From Crossiella cryophila (GTDB taxonomy: Bacteria > Actinomycetota > Actinomycetes > Mycobacteriales > Pseudonocardiaceae), in contig NZ_JACHMH010000001.1 of assembly GCF_014204915.1 (NCBI RefSeq), positions 992,001-1,056,000 of the forward strand: 64,000 bases of DNA. The letters are read 5' to 3'. Every line of letters starts with the position of its first letter. Position 1 is the first letter of the stretch. Position numbers and translations under genes: made by a program. The notes under the pieces are model-generated. The model saw nothing but the letters and a program-made list of their open reading frames with translations, was not told where the DNA came from and did no database searches. Positions 5,701-34,656 of this stretch are shown here, piece after piece.

Positions 5701-6151
5701 AGCGGGGGCGCCACCGCGACGGTGACCAGGGCGGGCAGGTAGCGGGTGAAGTAGTCGTCCAGGGCGTCCAGGCCCTTGGTGGCCAGCGCGGTAAGTGCGG
5801 CCGGGCCGCCGCCGGCGCGTTCCGGGTCGGCGATCCACTCCGGGCCCAGCCGCAGCGCGTGCGTGAGCAGCGCGGTGCGCAGTTCCTCCTTGGCGCCGGC
5901 GGCGGCGCGGGCGGCGACGGTTTCGGTGCCCCAGGCCAGGATCGACCTGGCGGCGACCGCGATGGCCAGCACGGTGACCGGGGTGGCCAGCTCGAACCGG
6001 CCTGCCACGATCCCGGCGAGCGCGGTGGCCAGTGCCCAGGCCTGGGCGACCAGGGCCGAGGCGGTGAGGGCGGCGAGCACCGCGGTCACCGCCAGGGCGC
6101 GGCGGGTGGAGCGGGACAGCGCGGGCAGGGCGCCCAGCGGGCCACGGGTCC

Positions 6152-6155
<4 letters not shown>
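2727..6155 (-). CDS. cydDC: Fused thiol reductant ABC exporter CydDC
   Basis: At 1142 residues this is CydD and CydC joined in one chain, each half with six membrane helices and an ABC ATPase. Walker A motifs are SPSGTGKST in the first half and GPSGAGKST in the second; signatures are LSAGERQRLAVARAL and VSGGEAQRLGLARAL. The exporter moves cysteine/glutathione-type thiols, or haem, out of the cytoplasm and is needed to assemble cytochrome bd. ATG at 6155 was chosen because it overlaps the cydB stop by four bases; a longer frame to 6446 is cydB shadow. Between the second membrane domain and its ATPase (about residues 850-950) is a Pro/Ala/Thr-rich low-complexity linker encoded by a strongly strand-skewed G tract. 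Confidence 0.95.
3363..3420 (+). repeat. G-tract able to form G-quadruplexes inside cydDC
   Basis: The plus (template) strand has at least six runs of four or more G within 58 bases, for example GGGGAGGGGGGTGGGGGTGG. It encodes part of the proline-rich linker of CydDC and is the most strand-biased stretch in the window. Confidence 0.7.
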
Positions 6156-7132
<977 letters not shown>

Positions 7133-10788: not shown

Positions 10789-11982
10789 CTACTCTCCGCT
10801 CACCACGGTTCCGGCGACCTCGCTCAGGCCCACCAGCGAACCATCGGGCCCTGGCGCGGTGGCGGTCAGCACCACCGTGTCGCCGTCGGCCAGGAAGGTC
10901 CGTTCCGTGCCGTCGGCCAGGGTGACCGGTTCCTTGCCGCCCCAGGACAGTTCCAGGAAGCTACCGCGCTGGCGCTTGTCCGCACCGGAGACCGTGCCGG
11001 AACCGAACAGGTCGCCCGGTCGCACGGTGGCGCCGTTGACCGTCATGTGCGCCAGCTGCTGGGCGGCCGACCAGGACATCTCAGCGAACGGCGGTTCGGC
11101 GACCAGCGAGCCGTTCCAGTTCACCTGGATGCGCAGGTCCAGGCCCCACGGCTGGTCCTCGACCAGGTAGTCCAGCAGCGGGTTGGGCGCGGCCGGGGTG
11201 GGCAGGCGGGCGTTGCTGAACGCCTCCAGCGGGGTGATCCAGGCCGAGATCGAGGTCAGGAAGGACTTGCCGAGGAACGGGCCGAGCGGCACGTACTCCC
11301 AGGCCTGGATGTCCCTGGCGGACCAGTCGTTGAGCAGCACCACGCCGAAGAGGTGCTCGGCCGCGGCCGAGGTGGACACCCTGGAGGCCACCGGGCCGCC
11401 GCAGACGAAGCCGACCTCGGCCTCGATGTCCAGCCGCTTGCTCGGGCCGAACCCCGGCGCGTCCGCGCCTGGCGGGCGGCTCTGGCCGTGCGGGCGGACC
11501 ACGTCGGTGCCGGAGACCACCACGGTGCCCGCCCGGCCGTGGTAGCCGACCGGCAGGTGGGTCCAGTTGGGCAGCAGCGGGTCGCCGTCGGGGCGGAACA
11601 TCCGGCCGACGTTCTCCGCGTGGTGCCGCGAGGAGTAGAAGTCCACGTAGTCGCCGACCCGGAAGGGCAGCAGCGAGCGGACCGCGCTCAGCGGCAGCAG
11701 GTCGGCGCCGACCGGGGTGGCCGGCAGCTGGACCAGTTCGGTCAGCCGGGCCCGCAGTTCGCTCCACAGCGGCCGTTCGGCGGCCAGCAGGTCATCCAGG
11801 GACTCACCGGCCACCAGCGGGCTCAGGCGGGCTCCCAGGTCCAGTGAGCGCAGCGGCAGCGCGTGGTCGCCCACCCGCACCGCCACCACCGGGCCGGAGC
11901 CCGCGTCGATCACGCCGTAGGGCAGGGTCTGCGGGCCGAATGGCGACTGGGCCGTGAAGGCCGGGTCCTTGATCCAGCTCAC
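10789..11982 (-). CDS. fahA: Fumarylacetoacetase
   Basis: A 397-residue enzyme of the last step of tyrosine/homogentisate catabolism, splitting fumarylacetoacetate into fumarate and acetoacetate. Metal and catalytic residues are present: DYVDFYSSRHHA (Asp ligand and catalytic His), DIEAEVGF (two Glu ligands) and LLNDWSARDIQ (Asp ligand). Length is normal for the family. GTG at 11982 overlaps the stop of the upstream unknown gene by four bases, so the two are translationally coupled. Confidence 0.96.
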   Translation of the reverse strand: MSWIKDPAFTAQSPFGPQTLPYGVIDAGSGPVVAVRVGDHALPLRSLDLGARLSPLVAGESLDDLLAAERPLWSELRARLTELVQLPATPVGADLLPLSAVRSLLPFRVGDYVDFYSSRHHAENVGRMFRPDGDPLLPNWTHLPVGYHGRAGTVVVSGTDVVRPHGQSRPPGADAPGFGPSKRLDIEAEVGFVCGGPVASRVSTSAAAEHLFGVVLLNDWSARDIQAWEYVPLGPFLGKSFLTSISAWITPLEAFSNARLPTPAAPNPLLDYLVEDQPWGLDLRIQVNWNGSLVAEPPFAEMSWSAAQQLAHMTVNGATVRPGDLFGSGTVSGADKRQRGSFLELSWGGKEPVTLADGTERTFLADGDTVVLTATAPGPDGSLVGLSEVAGTVVSGE

Positions 11983-12878
11983 AACAGGCCCAGCCCTTCC
12001 AGGTCCTCCACCGGTTCGGTCAGCGAGCAGGAGCCGTAGGAGGCGAACACCCCGCGGACGGCGTGCGCGGCCGCCTCCGGCAGTGCCTTGGCCTCCTCGG
12101 CGAGTGCCTCGGGGTCGTCGCTGGCCAGCGCCTCGCGGGCGTCCTTGCCGGAGAGCGTGCGGGCGGTGGCGACCAGCAGGTTGAGGAAGCCGTGGTGGTT
12201 GAACCCGGTCTCCTCGTCGCGGTGCCGCAGCGCGTTGTGCAGCCCGGCGGTGGCCTTGAACGGCACACCGGTGGTGCTGGCCACGCTGAGGAAGTCGGCG
12301 ACCTCGTCGATGCTCGGGAACGCCTCCGGGGTCTGGCCGCCGCAGCGCAGCTTGGGCCAGCTGCCGTGCTCGGCCACGCCGCGCACGCTGTCCAGCCATT
12401 CGCTGCTGGTCCCGGCCTCGGTGTTCTGGCTGGGGCGGCGTGGCTCGATGACCCGGATGACGTCCTCTGGCACGAACTCCGAGACGCGTTCCAGCCACAC
12501 GTCGTCGACCTCCGACGGCGCGGGCATCTCGACCATGCGCAGGGCGAGCAGCTCGGTGCGGGACTCGACGATGGAGATGGCCTTGGGCACCGCGCTCAGG
12601 CCGGTGTCGATCACCAGTGACAGACCGACCGGCTTCACCGGTTTGATCTTGATCAGCTCGGTGATCAGCTCGGGCAGCCGGGAGGCGTTGCACAGGAAAA
12701 GACCGACCACACCGGACCAGGACTCGGTCCTGGCCTGCAGGTGATTGCGCAGCGCGTCCGCCATCGGGGCGTTGCCCGGCGGGAACAACGCCGCGTCGTC
12801 GACCAGCCTTGCGAGCAGGGGCGGTGTACCGCGCGGACCGGGCGCACGGAGCTCAGCGACGCTTGACACGGCTGACAC
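11979..12878 (-). CDS. Conserved protein of unknown function in the homogentisate operon
   Basis: About 299 residues, soluble. I do not recognise a characterised family. Alternating hydrophobic strands and helices suggest an alpha/beta barrel. The most conserved-looking part is the second half: KLRCGGQTPEAFPS, then GVPFKATAGLHNALRH and NHHGFLNLLVATA, rich in Lys, Arg and His of active-site type. It is divergent from hmgA and coupled to fahA by a GTGA overlap. No maleylacetoacetate isomerase is present in this cluster, which is the one missing step between these two enzymes. Start choice is open: GTG at 12893, 12878 or 12869. Confidence 0.7.
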   Translation of the reverse strand: MSAVSSVAELRAPGPRGTPPLLARLVDDAALFPPGNAPMADALRNHLQARTESWSGVVGLFLCNASRLPELITELIKIKPVKPVGLSLVIDTGLSAVPKAISIVESRTELLALRMVEMPAPSEVDDVWLERVSEFVPEDVIRVIEPRRPSQNTEAGTSSEWLDSVRGVAEHGSWPKLRCGGQTPEAFPSIDEVADFLSVASTTGVPFKATAGLHNALRHRDEETGFNHHGFLNLLVATARTLSGKDAREALASDDPEALAEEAKALPEAAAHAVRGVFASYGSCSLTEPVEDLEGLGLL

Positions 12879-29543: not shown

Positions 29544-29711
29544 GGTGTCACTCCTCGTAGTCAGTTTCCGGGCAAGTTCTGCGCATCCTGCCATCCTGAT
29601 GGGCCCTAGCACAGCAGGTTGACGGTCACGGGTCCATGACTATGCAGGCTGCGCTGCCTGGGCTAACGGCGTTACGGCTTTCTGGTTGAGCACTCCACCA
29701 AGCGGGTTGTT

Positions 29712-29726
29712 CTATTCCCCGAATAG
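29712..29726. promoter_or_regulatory. Inverted repeat, candidate operator
   Basis: CTATTC-CCC-GAATAG is a perfect 6-bp inverted repeat about 40-55 bases upstream of the candidate promoter of the cluster that starts at 29849. Confidence 0.4.
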
Positions 29727-29763
29727 TCAATTCGTCAGCTCGGCGAGGCTGCCCAAACGTGCA

Positions 29764-29793
29764 TTGACCCAGGCAACTCGGCGCTGCTAGACA
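29764..29793 (+). promoter_or_regulatory. Candidate promoter of the decarboxylase-like/EamA cluster
   Basis: TTGACC (29764-29769), 18-base spacer, TAGACA (29788-29793), about 50 bases before the ATG at 29849. Confidence 0.4.
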
Positions 29794-29848
29794 AATAATC
29801 CGTCGATATCTCGGCGTAGCATCACTATCGAAAGGGCCGCAGCCTGCC

Positions 29849-31012
29849 ATGGACGAGAAATCGATCTCAGCTGCCGTCAGCCAGTACGGCACCCCGTGCT
29901 ACCTCTACGACGAGTCCTTGATCAGGCGGAATGCCGAACGCTTCACCGGCCTGGCCTATCCGGACAAGGCGGTCCATTTCGCCTCGATGGCCAACAACAA
30001 CCCCGAGCTGCTCAAGCTCCTGCACGGGCTCGGAATGGGGATCTTCGTCAACTCGGCGCGGCACCTCAAGCTCGCCATGGACTGCGGGTTCGCCCCCTCG
30101 GAGATCATCTACACCTCGACAGGGGTGCGCCGCTCCGACCTCGAGCTGATCTCGAAGCTGGGCGTCGCGGTGAACCTGGACTCCCTCGGTCAGCTTGAGC
30201 TGTACGGCTCGATCGCGCCGGGCACCAGCTGCGGCATCCGGCTCAACATCGACGAGAACTCCCTCGGCAACGTCTTCATCGGCGCGGAGAGCCGCATCGG
30301 GCTGCTGGAGAACGAGCTGGAGCTGGCCGCCAAGATCGCGGACAAGTACCAGCTCACCATCACCGGCACGCACGTCTACCTCGGCACCAACATTGTTTCC
30401 CTGGAAACGATGATGCAGGGCGTGGCTCGTACGCTTGAACTGTCCGATTTCTTCCCCGATCTCGCCTACGTCGACCTCGGTGGCGGCTTCCCGGTGACCG
30501 AGGACGGAATCGAGGAGTTCGACTACGCCAAATACGACGAAGCCATCAGCAAGATGTTCACCGCCTATTCACAGAAGCGATGTCGTCCTATCAAACTGAT
30601 CCTGGAGCCCGGTCGCGCGCTTTTTGGCGATACCGCGGTGTTCTGCACCAGCGTGCTGGATGTGAAGAACCGGCCGGACCGGTCCCTGGTCTGCGTCGAT
30701 TCCAGCGCCACCCTGATCCCCCGTTCGCTGTTCTACGGCGAGTTCCATGAGGTGAGTGTGCTGGGCCGATCGGGCGAGGCGCCCGCGGACCGCCCCGCCG
30801 ACGTGGTCGGTTCCACCACCTACTCCCGCGACTTCCTGGCCAAGGGCGCGCCGTTGCCGCAACTGGCCACCGAGGACGTGCTGGTCTTCGCCAACGCGGG
30901 CAGCTACTGCTATTCGATGATCACCCAGTTCCTCGGCCAGGACGAGCCGAGTGAGGTGCTGGTGCACCCGGACGGCTCGCACACGCTGATCCGGAACCCC
31001 GAGCGTGGCTGA
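29849..31012 (+). CDS. Fold-III PLP decarboxylase homologue lacking the PLP lysine
   Basis: A 387-residue member of the Orn/DAP/Arg decarboxylase-2 family by overall architecture: an alanine-racemase-like barrel and a C-terminal beta domain, with EPGRALFGD near residue 253. In active enzymes the barrel begins with a (Y/H)xAxKAN motif whose Lys binds PLP. Here the same place reads HFASMANNN, so the Lys is Met47. HxGS is changed to VYLGTN, and the C-terminal CESxD motif to TTYSRD. It may be a pseudoenzyme, or use another cofactor mode. Codons such as ATT, GTT, CGT, CTT and AAA are more frequent than in neighbours, suggesting transfer. It leads a coupled cluster; the next start overlaps by eight bases. 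Confidence 0.75.
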   Translation: MDEKSISAAVSQYGTPCYLYDESLIRRNAERFTGLAYPDKAVHFASMANNNPELLKLLHGLGMGIFVNSARHLKLAMDCGFAPSEIIYTSTGVRRSDLELISKLGVAVNLDSLGQLELYGSIAPGTSCGIRLNIDENSLGNVFIGAESRIGLLENELELAAKIADKYQLTITGTHVYLGTNIVSLETMMQGVARTLELSDFFPDLAYVDLGGGFPVTEDGIEEFDYAKYDEAISKMFTAYSQKRCRPIKLILEPGRALFGDTAVFCTSVLDVKNRPDRSLVCVDSSATLIPRSLFYGEFHEVSVLGRSGEAPADRPADVVGSTTYSRDFLAKGAPLPQLATEDVLVFANAGSYCYSMITQFLGQDEPSEVLVHPDGSHTLIRNPERG

Positions 31013-31922
31013 GCGCTGGACCGTCGAGGAGATCGCCCCTGGTGAGCGGCACTGCCACCGGGTGACCGATGAGGTCGTGGTCCTCGACAGCGAGTTCCAG
31101 CGGATCGAGGTGCTGGAGACCCAGGCCTACGGACGCGGGCTGTTCCTGGACGGGCGGATCCAGCACGTGGCCGCGGATGAGTACATCTACAGCGAGTCGA
31201 TGGTGCACCCGGCCATGCAGCTGCTGGACGGGCGGGCGGCCAGGGTGCTGTGCGTCGGCGCCGGTCCGGGCGGGATCGTGCGCGAGCTGCTGAACTACCC
31301 CGGCGTCGGCGAGGTAGTGCAGGTGGAGATCGACACCACCGTGGTCGACATCGCCCGCGAGCACCTGCCCGACGTGGGCACGGAGTTCCGGTCGGACCCG
31401 AGGTACCGGCTGGTGGTGGCCGACGCGCTGGACTACCTGGCCGGCGGCGGCGAGCCGTTCGACCTGATCGTCAACGACCTCAGCGAACCCCTGCCCGGCA
31501 GCCCGGCGAGCAGGTTGTTCGCCGCCGAGGCGATCCGGCTGGTGCGGTCCAGGCTGAGCGGGCGCGGGCTGTACGTGTCCTGGTGCGGGTCGGTCGGCCC
31601 GGTCTCGGCGGAGTTCGCCGCCCGGATCTTCCAGGTGATCGAGCAGGTCTTCGGGCAGGCACACGGCTACCTCAGCTACCCGCAGTCCTACGGCACGGTC
31701 TGGCTGACCGGCATCGGCGCGGTCGGCTCGGTGGACCCGCTGGCGCTGAGCCCGGCCGAGCTGGACCAGCGGCTGGCCCGCACCTGCCCGGCGCCCACCC
31801 GGCTCTACGACGGGCAGACCCACCACCACATGTTCCTGCTGCCGAAGAACGTCCGGACCGCGCTGCGCGCCCCGGTCGCGGATTCGGCCGCTCCCATCGA
31901 GCTGCTTGTGGAGAGGCTGTGA
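31005..31922 (+). CDS. Spermidine-synthase-like transferase 1
   Basis: A 305-residue Rossmann-fold protein of the spermidine synthase family. GRIQHVAADEYIYSESM (gatekeeping/substrate segment), VLCVGAGPGG near residues 82-91, VEIDTTVVDIAREHLP near 108 and NDLSEPL near 157 align with family motifs. In polyamine synthases these read YHE, GGGDGG and D(S/T)xDP; here the substrate-contacting His and Asp residues are Ser, Pro and Ser/Glu. The nucleoside-binding EID is kept. It probably transfers a SAM-derived group to another acceptor. GTG at 31005 overlaps the previous gene; the end overlaps the methyltransferase by four. Confidence 0.8.
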   Translation: MAERWTVEEIAPGERHCHRVTDEVVVLDSEFQRIEVLETQAYGRGLFLDGRIQHVAADEYIYSESMVHPAMQLLDGRAARVLCVGAGPGGIVRELLNYPGVGEVVQVEIDTTVVDIAREHLPDVGTEFRSDPRYRLVVADALDYLAGGGEPFDLIVNDLSEPLPGSPASRLFAAEAIRLVRSRLSGRGLYVSWCGSVGPVSAEFAARIFQVIEQVFGQAHGYLSYPQSYGTVWLTGIGAVGSVDPLALSPAELDQRLARTCPAPTRLYDGQTHHHMFLLPKNVRTALRAPVADSAAPIELLVERL

Positions 31923-32740
31923 CGAGAGCAGCGCCGGAGGACTTCGCCCTGGTCGCGGAGCTGTACGACCAGGACATGGCCGGCAACAACCTGGTGCACG
32001 ACCTGGTCTACCCCCGGGTGTACGGGCCGGGTGAGTACATCGGGCAGTTCAGCGACAACAGCGCGTCCGAGCTGCGCGCGCTGGCCGCCGCGATGGACCT
32101 GGCACCGGATTCCGCGGTGCTGGACATCGGGTGCGGCACCGCGCCGGTGGCCGCGTTCCTGGCCGGTGAGTTCGGCTGGCGGATCACCGGCATCGACGTG
32201 GCGGCCAGCCCGTTGCGCAAGGCGGCGCAGCGGCTGACCGAGGCCGGGCTGGCGGACCGGGTCTCGCTGGCACACGGGGATGTCTACCGGCACGGGTTCG
32301 CCGCGCCCTTCGACGGGATCTACGGCACGGGCGCGTTCTGCCACTTCGATCCGGCGCGGTTGTTCGCTCGCTGCCATGAGTTGCTGCGGCCCGGCGGGCG
32401 GCTGGCGTTCATGGAGCGGGTGCGCACCGGGGAGCTGTCCGAGCAGGAGTGGCGGCAGCTCACCGTGGAATGGGCCTGCCCCACGGTGAACACGGTGCCG
32501 GAGTACCGGGAAGCCTTGTCCGGGGCCGGTTTCGCGGTGGACGTGGTGCAGGACCTCACGCCCACCTTCCGGGACTGGCAGGACCGCTCGGTGATCGTCC
32601 GGCACGAGCTGAAGGCCGAGATCATCGCGCTGACCTCGGCGGAGTACTTCGAGACCAGCGTGCGGCTGGCCGACTACGAGAACGCGGTGACCAAGGCAGG
32701 CAAGCTCGGCTATGCCCTCGTGACCGCGACTGCTCGATGA
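31919..32740 (+). CDS. Class I SAM-dependent methyltransferase
   Basis: A 273-residue enzyme. Motif I is VLDIGCGTAPVAAFL near residue 59, followed by ITGIDVAASPL, then motif IV YGTGAFCHFD and the post-motif LLRPGGRLAFMERV. It belongs to the small-molecule O/N/C-methyltransferase type. GTG at 31919 has GAGAGG upstream and overlaps the preceding stop (GTGA); the stop overlaps the next ATG (ATGA). It lies between the two spermidine-synthase-like genes, so it probably modifies their product. Confidence 0.9.
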   Translation: MTRAAPEDFALVAELYDQDMAGNNLVHDLVYPRVYGPGEYIGQFSDNSASELRALAAAMDLAPDSAVLDIGCGTAPVAAFLAGEFGWRITGIDVAASPLRKAAQRLTEAGLADRVSLAHGDVYRHGFAAPFDGIYGTGAFCHFDPARLFARCHELLRPGGRLAFMERVRTGELSEQEWRQLTVEWACPTVNTVPEYREALSGAGFAVDVVQDLTPTFRDWQDRSVIVRHELKAEIIALTSAEYFETSVRLADYENAVTKAGKLGYALVTATAR

Positions 32741-33651
32741 AACCGTTGTGGGACAAGCAGATCGAGGAGTACCTCGGTCCTGCCGAATGTCACGTGCACG
32801 CGGTGCGCTCGGTCCTGGTGACCGGGCGCACCGCCCGGCAGGGCTTCGAGATCGTCGAGCTGGGCGGCTACGGCCGGGCGATGGTGATCGAGGGCAGGGT
32901 GCAGTCCACCGAGGCGGACGAGGCGGCCTACCACGAGGCGTTGCTGCTGCCCGGCTACTGCCTGCTGCCGCACACCCGCCGGGTGCTCTGCCTCGGCGGG
33001 GCCAACGGCGGGGTGCTGCACCGGCTGTGCGCGATGCCGGAGCTGACCTCGGTGGTGCAGCTGGACATCGACCCGGAACTGCACCGGCACTCGCTGACCC
33101 ACCTGCCGCACATGCACCGCGGCGCGCAGCTTGATCCGCGCTGCCGCCTGGAGTTCGGCGATCCACGCACCCTGCTCGGGCAGCAGCCGGGCGGCTTCGA
33201 CCTGGTGCTGGCCGATCTGCCGGACGCGGTCGAGGGCTCGCCGACCCCGGCCCTGTTCACCCGCGAGTTCTACCGCCAGATCAAGGCGAGACTCGGGCCG
33301 CACGGGGTGTTCGTCACCCAGGCCGGCGCGGCCAGCTTCCTGGACCCGGAGTTCTTCGCCAGCGTGGCGCACACCCTGCGCTCGGTGTTCCGGCACGTGC
33401 TGCCCTACACCCTGACCGTGCCCGCCTACGGCATTCCCTGGGGCTTCGTGCTGGCCAGCGACGGCCTTGACCCGGCGACGCTGACCGAGGAGCTGATCGA
33501 GCGGCGGCTGGCCGAACTGAAGGCGGAGCCGGAGTGCTACGACGCGGCCACCCACCGGCACATGACCGCGTTGCCGCTGCGGTTGCGCCGGGCACTGGCG
33601 GCGGCCGGACGGGTGATCAGTGATGCGGACACCCTGGCCGTCCGTGTTTGA
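32737..33651 (+). CDS. Spermidine-synthase-like transferase 2
   Basis: A 304-residue second member of the family, not a close copy of the first. STEADEAAYHEALLLPG keeps the YHE motif, and VLCLGGANGG near residue 84, LDIDPELH and LADLPDAVEG near 159 keep more of the canonical pattern than its neighbour does. The Asp of GGGDGG is Asn. With the first protein it could form a heteromer or act in sequence. ATG at 32737 overlaps the methyltransferase stop by four bases. Confidence 0.8.
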   Translation: MKPLWDKQIEEYLGPAECHVHAVRSVLVTGRTARQGFEIVELGGYGRAMVIEGRVQSTEADEAAYHEALLLPGYCLLPHTRRVLCLGGANGGVLHRLCAMPELTSVVQLDIDPELHRHSLTHLPHMHRGAQLDPRCRLEFGDPRTLLGQQPGGFDLVLADLPDAVEGSPTPALFTREFYRQIKARLGPHGVFVTQAGAASFLDPEFFASVAHTLRSVFRHVLPYTLTVPAYGIPWGFVLASDGLDPATLTEELIERRLAELKAEPECYDAATHRHMTALPLRLRRALAAAGRVISDADTLAVRV

Positions 33652-33681
33652 TCGGCGGCGCACCGGAAACAGGGGGAGAAC

Positions 33682-34632
33682 ATGAGTCAGCAGACCGCCG
33701 TGCGCGGTGCGGGCCTGGCCGGGATCGGGCTGGGCATCGGCGCGAACCTCATCTGGGGCCTGGCCTTCCTGGTGCCGGTGCTGTTGCCGGAGTTCTCCCC
33801 GGTGGCGGTCACCCTGGGCCGCTACGTCTGTTACGGCCTGCTCTCCGTCGCGTTGATCGTGTTCACCGGCACCCGGCTGCGCGGGCATTCCTGGCCGGTC
33901 TGGCGCTCCTGCCTGCTCTTCGCCGTGACCGGCAACGTCGGCTACTACTTCCTGCTGGTCCAGGGCATCGCGCTGGTCGGGGCGCCGGTGGTGGCGGTGA
34001 TCATCGGCACCCTGCCGGTGACCGTGGCCGTCTACGGCAACCTGCGCCGCCGCGAGTTCCCCTTCCGCAGGCTGGCCCTGCCGGTCGGGGTGATCCTGCT
34101 CGGCCTGGTCGCGGTGAACCTCAGCGAGATCGACTGGTCCGGCCTTGGCGGTCGCTCGCTGGGCGAGCAGCTGCTCGGGGTGGGCTGCGCGGTGCTGGCA
34201 CTGGCCATGTGGACCTGGTTCGGGGTGGCCAACGCGCACTTCCTGCGCACCAACCCGCAGGTGAGTTCGGCGGACTGGTCCACGCTGATCGGCATCGCCA
34301 CGCTCGGGCTCTCCGTGCTGGCCGCGCCGCTGCTGCTGGTCACCGGGGACGCCGTCGGCCGCGGTATCGGCGCCGACTCGCTCTGGTACCTGCTGCTGGG
34401 CAGCCTGGTGCTCGGCGTGCTGGTCAGCTGGGGCGGCACCCTGCTGTGGAACCAGGCATCGAGCAGGCTGCCGGTCTCGGTGGCCGGTCAGCTGATCGTG
34501 TTCGAGACCATCTCCGGCCTGGTCTATGTGTTCCTGGCCAGCGGCAAGACCCCGCCGCTGCTGGGCGTGGCCGGGATGGCCGTGGTGCTGCTGGGGGTGC
34601 TGATCGGGATCCGGCAGGCCCGGACCGCCTGA
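33682..34632 (+). CDS. EamA-family (DMT) transporter
   Basis: A 316-residue membrane protein with ten predicted helices in two EamA repeats, typical of drug/metabolite exporters; staphylopine and pseudopaline exporters belong to the same family. ATG at 33682 has a strong AGGGGGAGA site, 30 bases after the last biosynthetic gene. Its place at the end of the cluster suggests export of the cluster's product. Confidence 0.9.
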   Translation: MSQQTAVRGAGLAGIGLGIGANLIWGLAFLVPVLLPEFSPVAVTLGRYVCYGLLSVALIVFTGTRLRGHSWPVWRSCLLFAVTGNVGYYFLLVQGIALVGAPVVAVIIGTLPVTVAVYGNLRRREFPFRRLALPVGVILLGLVAVNLSEIDWSGLGGRSLGEQLLGVGCAVLALAMWTWFGVANAHFLRTNPQVSSADWSTLIGIATLGLSVLAAPLLLVTGDAVGRGIGADSLWYLLLGSLVLGVLVSWGGTLLWNQASSRLPVSVAGQLIVFETISGLVYVFLASGKTPPLLGVAGMAVVLLGVLIGIRQARTA

Positions 34633-34656
34633 GTCTCCAGGCGGCCCGGGTCCGGC

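Follow-up and report, generated by a model that had tools for sequence, protein, structure and literature searches.

What does a bacterium make with an operon in which a relative of amino acid decarboxylases stands beside two relatives of spermidine synthase (SpeE), a methyltransferase and a candidate exporter? This question is raised by a five-gene block of Crossiella cryophila. We have analyzed it within a window of 64,000 nucleotides, positions 992001-1056000 of the 10.06 Mb single-contig genome; coordinates given without further indication are those of the window. The block lies on the + strand at 29849-34632 and has, by its open reading frame (ORF) calls, the order DCx-SpA-MT-SpB-EamA. 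The genes overlap by 8, 4 and 4 bases, followed by a 30-base gap before the EamA gene, as an earlier note made from the sequence had described and as the ORF coordinates bear out. Here, we describe that the first protein, DCx, has a LysA fold without the lysine that forms the Schiff base with pyridoxal 5'-phosphate (PLP), and that both SpeE-like proteins have replaced the acid at the donor-amine position. From these features the operon as a whole may make and export one small amine-type metabolite, a reading that we consider evenly poised.

DCx lacks the PLP lysine of the LysA fold

DCx (29849..31012, + strand) matches the N- and C-terminal domains of the ornithine/diaminopimelate decarboxylases in Pfam. 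Its model shows the two-domain LysA fold, which is fold type III of the PLP enzymes, with a match over the whole length. To this extent its earlier naming as a PLP-decarboxylase homologue holds. What had been overlooked is that the PLP lysine itself is missing and that its position is taken by Met47 (codon 29987..29989, + strand). In an alignment of 12 lysine-less rows, two of them from one genome, with 14 comparison rows, the Schiff-base position carries Met in 11 and Val in one of the lysine-less rows, and Lys in all 14 comparison rows. The histidine that stacks on PLP is present in 14/14 comparison rows and is Tyr177 (codon 30377..30379, + strand) in 12/12 lysine-less rows. The catalytic cysteine of the dimer loop, again found in every comparison row, is Thr324 in every lysine-less one. 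Thr324 opens the stretch Thr324-Tyr325-Ser326-Arg327 (30818..30829, + strand) at the Cys-Glu-Ser-Gly position of LysA, and Arg327 occurs in 12/12 lysine-less and 0/14 comparison rows. The lysine-less rows thus have a new invariant set, Asn68, Tyr177, Thr324 and Arg327. Gly211-213, Glu253, Arg256 and Tyr353, which we take to be the contacts to the cofactor phosphate and ring nitrogen, are kept in all 12. The rewiring without lysine marks one clade (support 100/99), and DCx scores 209.5 bits, below the curated NCBIfam cut-off for LysA of 297.9 bits.

Compared with LysA, BtrK and the D-ornithine/D-lysine decarboxylase, DCx is alike in its full-length fold, in the residues for the cofactor phosphate and ring nitrogen and in Asp328. 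It differs in having no Schiff-base lysine, no PLP-stacking histidine and no catalytic cysteine, and in the new loop residue Arg327. Fold type III PLP enzymes rely on this lysine. The ColD-type pyridoxamine phosphate (PMP) enzymes are known to do without lysine in a PLP fold; ColD, however, is of fold type I. The DCx clade, with lysine, histidine and cysteine replaced and the phosphate site kept, would test whether the LysA fold has a second, non-Schiff-base chemistry. Among the fold matches of DCx is PDB entry 9cpz, by its entry description a C387S D-ornithine/D-lysine decarboxylase with PMP and an aldehyde. By analogy, this entry suggests that a change of the loop cysteine can turn such an enzyme toward PMP, where we infer that Cys387 is the cysteine replaced in DCx. 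It prompts the idea of a PMP role for DCx, without showing it. Judged by titles and abstract openings, none of the open-licence papers that our searches of PubMed Central (PMC) returned dealt with a lysine-less enzyme of the LysA fold or with the five-gene cluster.

Both SpeE-like proteins have replaced the donor-amine acid

SpA (31005..31922, + strand) and SpB (32737..33651, + strand) both match the Spermine_synth domain (PF01564), and the tetramerisation domain (PF17284) is matched in SpA only. MT (31919..32740, + strand) is by Pfam a class-I methyltransferase dependent on S-adenosylmethionine (SAM), and its best PDB relatives are small-molecule O- and N-methyltransferases. The described arrangement of two SpeE-like genes around a methyltransferase is therefore correct. 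The SpeE fold was modelled for SpA alone (predicted local distance difference test, pLDDT, 83; predicted template modelling score, pTM, 0.88), with T. thermophilus SpeE and thermospermine synthase as best matches. The nearest solved relative of SpB is also T. thermophilus SpeE, an aminopropyltransferase. Both proteins fall below the NCBIfam cut-offs for SpeE, SpA and SpB scoring 195.7 and 179.1 against 260 bits, and 129.3 and 129.6 against 249.55.

We aligned seven SpA and seven SpB sequences with ten SpeE-family references (24 rows); six of the references adjoin SpeD in their own genomes, the other four being without established function. The acid of the GGG(D/E) motif, D or E in 10/10 references, is Pro88 in 7/7 SpA (codon 31266..31268, + strand) and Asn90 in 7/7 SpB (codon 33004..33006, + strand). 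Its counterpart in the GGGD motif of K. lactis SpdS is presumably Asp98. At the position that we take to be that of human Gln80, all ten references carry His; SpB agrees with them (His66), and only SpA departs (Ser63). All 24 rows retain the catalytic Asp, and both SpA and SpB keep the acid at the ribose-binding position. Asp98 of K. lactis SpdS is described as capturing the aminopropyl portion of decarboxylated SAM, with Asp167 deprotonating putrescine (PMC10146546), and human Gln80 as touching the aminopropyl group (PMC12812037). The earlier observation that substrate-contacting residues are altered is supported, in a pattern that fits SAM rather than decarboxylated SAM. Set against SpeE, thermospermine synthase and the T. 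thermophilus aminopropyltransferase, the likeness lies in the fold (for SpA), the ribose-position acid, the catalytic Asp and Tyr62, and the difference in the donor-amine acid and in Ser63 of SpA. In the tree, SpA and SpB each form one group against the other (100/99), and their sister relation is weakly supported (63/16).

Conservation and loss of the block

A search with SpA led to 14 loci, six of them with the neighbours present; at the other eight (L012-L019) DCx, MT and EamA have no match at 1e-5. The complete order DCx-SpA-MT-SpB-EamA is found (L006-L009) in Crossiella S99.2, Streptoalloteichus tenebrarius, Streptosporangium saharense and Saccharothrix algeriensis. In a third Crossiella (G188, L079) the whole region matches and all five genes are held, and two Stappia (Alphaproteobacteria; L010, L011) have DCx-SpA-MT-SpB in the same order. 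The block or its four-gene core is thus present in eight genomes, C. cryophila counted. Duplicate genomes, recognized by the same AdoMet decarboxylase coordinates, were counted once (G186/G786, G377/G787, G056/G789). The gene order is not due to chance, since it recurs in five further genomes with the complete set and in two with the first four genes. The comparison of synteny across genomes that the earlier note had called for hence finds that the genes travel together, and its view that they act together is borne out by this co-occurrence and by the loss of the block as a whole.

This loss is seen in two Crossiella. In G185 (L101) the alignment of the upstream flank ends at window position 29644 and that of the downstream flank starts at 34642; 3 bases separate these two points in L101 (8112 and 8108). 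In G187 (L100) the flank reaches to 29721, beyond which gene 1 and the region before it survive as four fragments (between 29781 and 30821), and similarity begins again from 34611. Because of these breakpoints, the unit that is present or absent (29645..34641, no strand) comprises the five genes and about 200 bases upstream. The neighbouring stretch with an amino-acid ATP-binding cassette (ABC) transporter is also found in the Crossiella without the block, and because it persists there, the transporter and the M20 peptidase lie outside the unit. The operon appears to be mobile or easily lost, its five genes being gained and lost together. The gene 1 remnants of G187 (L100 8535-9110) show a block in the course of loss.

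The ratio of nonsynonymous to synonymous substitution rates (dN/dS) of the five genes is 0.09-0.27 against Crossiella S99.2 and 0.12-0.51 against G188, with DCx practically the lowest in both comparisons (0.09 and 0.12). The five genes are under purifying selection between Crossiella, and DCx is not decaying. Between genera (L007, L008, L009) the identity is 69-71% for DCx, 71-76% for MT and 57-61% for SpB.

Of the 390 genomes in the family sample, five carry the exact DCx motif, and these same five, with C. cryophila among them, are the ones matched by the SpA profile at E 1e-55 or better. Four of 396 genomes of the phylum sample match profile A1 at 1e-60 or better, namely C. cryophila and three ordinary Lys-bearing LysA types. 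Among 385 genomes of the Stappia class there are nine matches at 1e-62 or better, Stappia and eight Lys-bearing ones, and among 297 of the Streptosporangium order the exact motif occurs in the centre genome only. Rarity of the DCx type is thereby indicated, in samples that are small parts of their groups. A plasmid search with SpA gave no record at 1e-40.

Donor, mechanism and rival explanations

The claim that the block has no SAM decarboxylase agrees with the absence of the AdoMet decarboxylase family PF02675 from the 64-kb window; the genome has it at two places, 4.42 and 6.77 Mb. Elsewhere in the genome, at 4.419-4.422 Mb (4419298-4421588), a decarboxylase that retains its lysine is encoded together with SpeD and a SpeE-family protein; this separate set is likely the normal spermidine pathway. 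Streptosporangium saharense has no match to PF02675, which is of the prokaryotic type, and its Spermine_synth genes are the two block genes only. The block seems able to persist without decarboxylated SAM, for which this one genome is thin ground. Because the donor-amine acid is replaced and S. saharense has no PF02675 match, SAM is the likelier donor, and SpA and SpB probably transfer its 3-amino-3-carboxypropyl group. The earlier note had left open an aminopropyl or a 3-amino-3-carboxypropyl group from SAM; the residue changes support the part on SAM, while the acid for an aminopropyl donor is gone in 14/14 sequences.

The five-gene unit, how it is conserved and which residues of DCx, SpA and SpB have changed can be seen in the sequence itself; donor, order of steps and product are proposals that we read from it. 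SpA and SpB would be two successive group transferases that take SAM itself and hand on the 3-amino-3-carboxypropyl group. MT would add one or more methyl groups, and the EamA protein would carry the product out. DCx may bind PLP, PMP or a pyridoxyl adduct of an intermediate noncovalently and support a reaction other than classical decarboxylation, or it may act as a binding subunit; we put forward the noncovalent chemistry only tentatively. A stronger joint claim would make DCx a new family of lysine-less LysA-fold enzymes in which PMP or a pyridoxyl adduct is anchored through its phosphate, its SpeE-like partners users of intact SAM as 3-amino-3-carboxypropyl donor, and the product a novel class of exported amino-acid-like metabolites, N-oxygenated in Stappia. 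That all of this holds together seems unlikely. If true, SAM-using SpeE enzymes would link polyamine enzymes to 3-amino-3-carboxypropyl transfer. With its 5 kb, the block is compact and lends itself to expression and assay.

Several points weigh against the proposed pathway. PF02675 is found elsewhere in 7/8 block-bearing genomes, where decarboxylated SAM is probably available. S. saharense could still have a eukaryote-type AdoMet decarboxylase, a search for which matched no control genome, and its genome completeness is not given. Without their donor acid, SpA and SpB might use another donor or have lost activity, and SpB keeps His66, as in 10/10 references, and Asp163, as in 9/10. The EamA protein of the window is unmatched in Stappia (1e-5), though another EamA-family gene is nearby. 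The seven genomes with PF02675 would suit SpA and SpB as aminopropyltransferases that use SpeD-derived decarboxylated SAM and make an unusual methylated polyamine, and so would the SpeE fold of the SpA model, the catalytic Asp and the closeness of SpB to the T. thermophilus aminopropyltransferase. We consider this improbable, given that the acid for the aminopropyl amine is lost throughout SpA and SpB, that Streptosporangium has no PF02675 match and that both proteins miss the SpeE cut-offs. An ordinary polyamine operon with annotation noise has the family names in its favour and is hardly credible: the Lys-bearing decarboxylase, SpeD and SpeE set is encoded separately, and the rewiring of the decarboxylase-like and both SpeE-like proteins already contradicts it.

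The lost donor-amine acid would also agree with SpA and/or SpB breaking or self-cyclising SAM to a lactone or azetidine acid, with release of methylthioadenosine and no acceptor. A proline-like product of this kind would fit with the genes beside the block at the Stappia locus L010, which encode a relative of cis-3-hydroxyproline dehydratase and a ProX-like betaine-binding protein. However, the Asp that deprotonates the acceptor amine in SpeE is kept in 14/14, and two such enzymes would be redundant. The motif PFNxxGN, given for the azetidine synthases AzeJ and VioH in PMC11794875, is absent from the translations of MT, SpA and SpB, scanned by eye, and the identification of any of the three as an azetidine synthase was rejected. 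Self-cyclisation thus appears very improbable. For DCx, the alternative is a pseudoenzyme that regulates or holds the transferases as a binding or regulatory subunit. Regulators of this kind have parallels in antizyme inhibitor and the trypanosome prozyme, DCx has lost the PLP lysine, histidine and cysteine, and its gene adjoins SpA in the eight block genomes. In contrast, the phosphate-site residues are kept in all lysine-less rows together with the new invariant set, and the position of relatives beside radical-SAM or asparagine synthetase B (AsnB) genes argues against a dedicated SpeE regulator, which leaves the pseudoenzyme somewhat doubtful.

Comparison with known systems

A metallophore-like product, as predicted in the earlier note, finds no support. 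No nicotianamine-synthase or opine-dehydrogenase Pfam family is matched in the five proteins (E 0.001) and the ABC transporter lies outside the unit, and the metallophore reading was rejected. The proposed donor group would be like that of the staphylopine/nicotianamine-type transfer (PMC10491745); the clusters of that type differ from the block in having those two enzyme families. Microcin C (PMC10491745) likewise has a SAM alkyl transferase together with a decarboxylase domain dependent on PLP (MccD and MccE). In contrast to microcin C, the block has no precursor peptide, its decarboxylase-like protein is lysine-less and its transferases are SpeE-like. A microcin-C-like reading was rejected, and the system serves as a useful analogy only.

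The exporter candidate and the Stappia variant

The candidate exporter of the EamA family (33682..34632, + strand) matches PF00892, and the corresponding position in L006-L009 is occupied by a close relative. At the Stappia locus L010 the order is ProX-like binding protein, EamA, enolase-superfamily gene, DCx, SpA, MT, SpB, YqcI/YcgG and carbon-nitrogen hydrolase. The EamA-family gene (5715-6614) here precedes DCx, with the enolase-superfamily gene between them, which is nearest to cis-3-hydroxyproline dehydratase (308 bits, cut-off 500). Counted from its ATG, the YqcI/YcgG gene (11623-12378) shares 4 bases with the end of SpB, and the protein is GntA-like with 45.7 bits (cut-off 145). It is possibly an N-hydroxylase added to the cluster, and L010 has the appearance of a biosynthetic cluster that includes an N-oxygenase. 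The neighbouring genes hint at a betaine- or proline-like product.

Relatives of DCx outside the cluster

Five records were obtained in a plasmid search with DCx (1e-40 or better). In the four relatives that are intact, the lysine is replaced by Met or Val, the histidine by Tyr and the cysteine by Thr. Two Mesorhizobium plasmids have the relative downstream of two radical-SAM genes and ahead of a DUF3050 gene; on plasmid p_3 of M. huakuii 583 (L025 4748-9958) the lysine-less relative stands directly after radical-SAM genes of the SPASM and B12-binding types. The same two types precede a lysine-less relative on pRmeGR4a of S. meliloti GR4 (L027 3655-8086), with a QueA-family gene upstream. These loci are apparently a second type of cluster built on the DCx fold. 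The relative on plasmid Cy782202 of the cyanobacterium Gloeothece (L028 6956-8185) has Val for Lys and follows an asparagine synthetase B gene; a neighbouring protein there has no Pfam or NCBIfam match at E 0.001. On pMHb of M. huakuii 7653R (L026 1963-3066) the DCx relative is frame-shifted, whereas two other Mesorhizobium plasmids carry an intact homologue.

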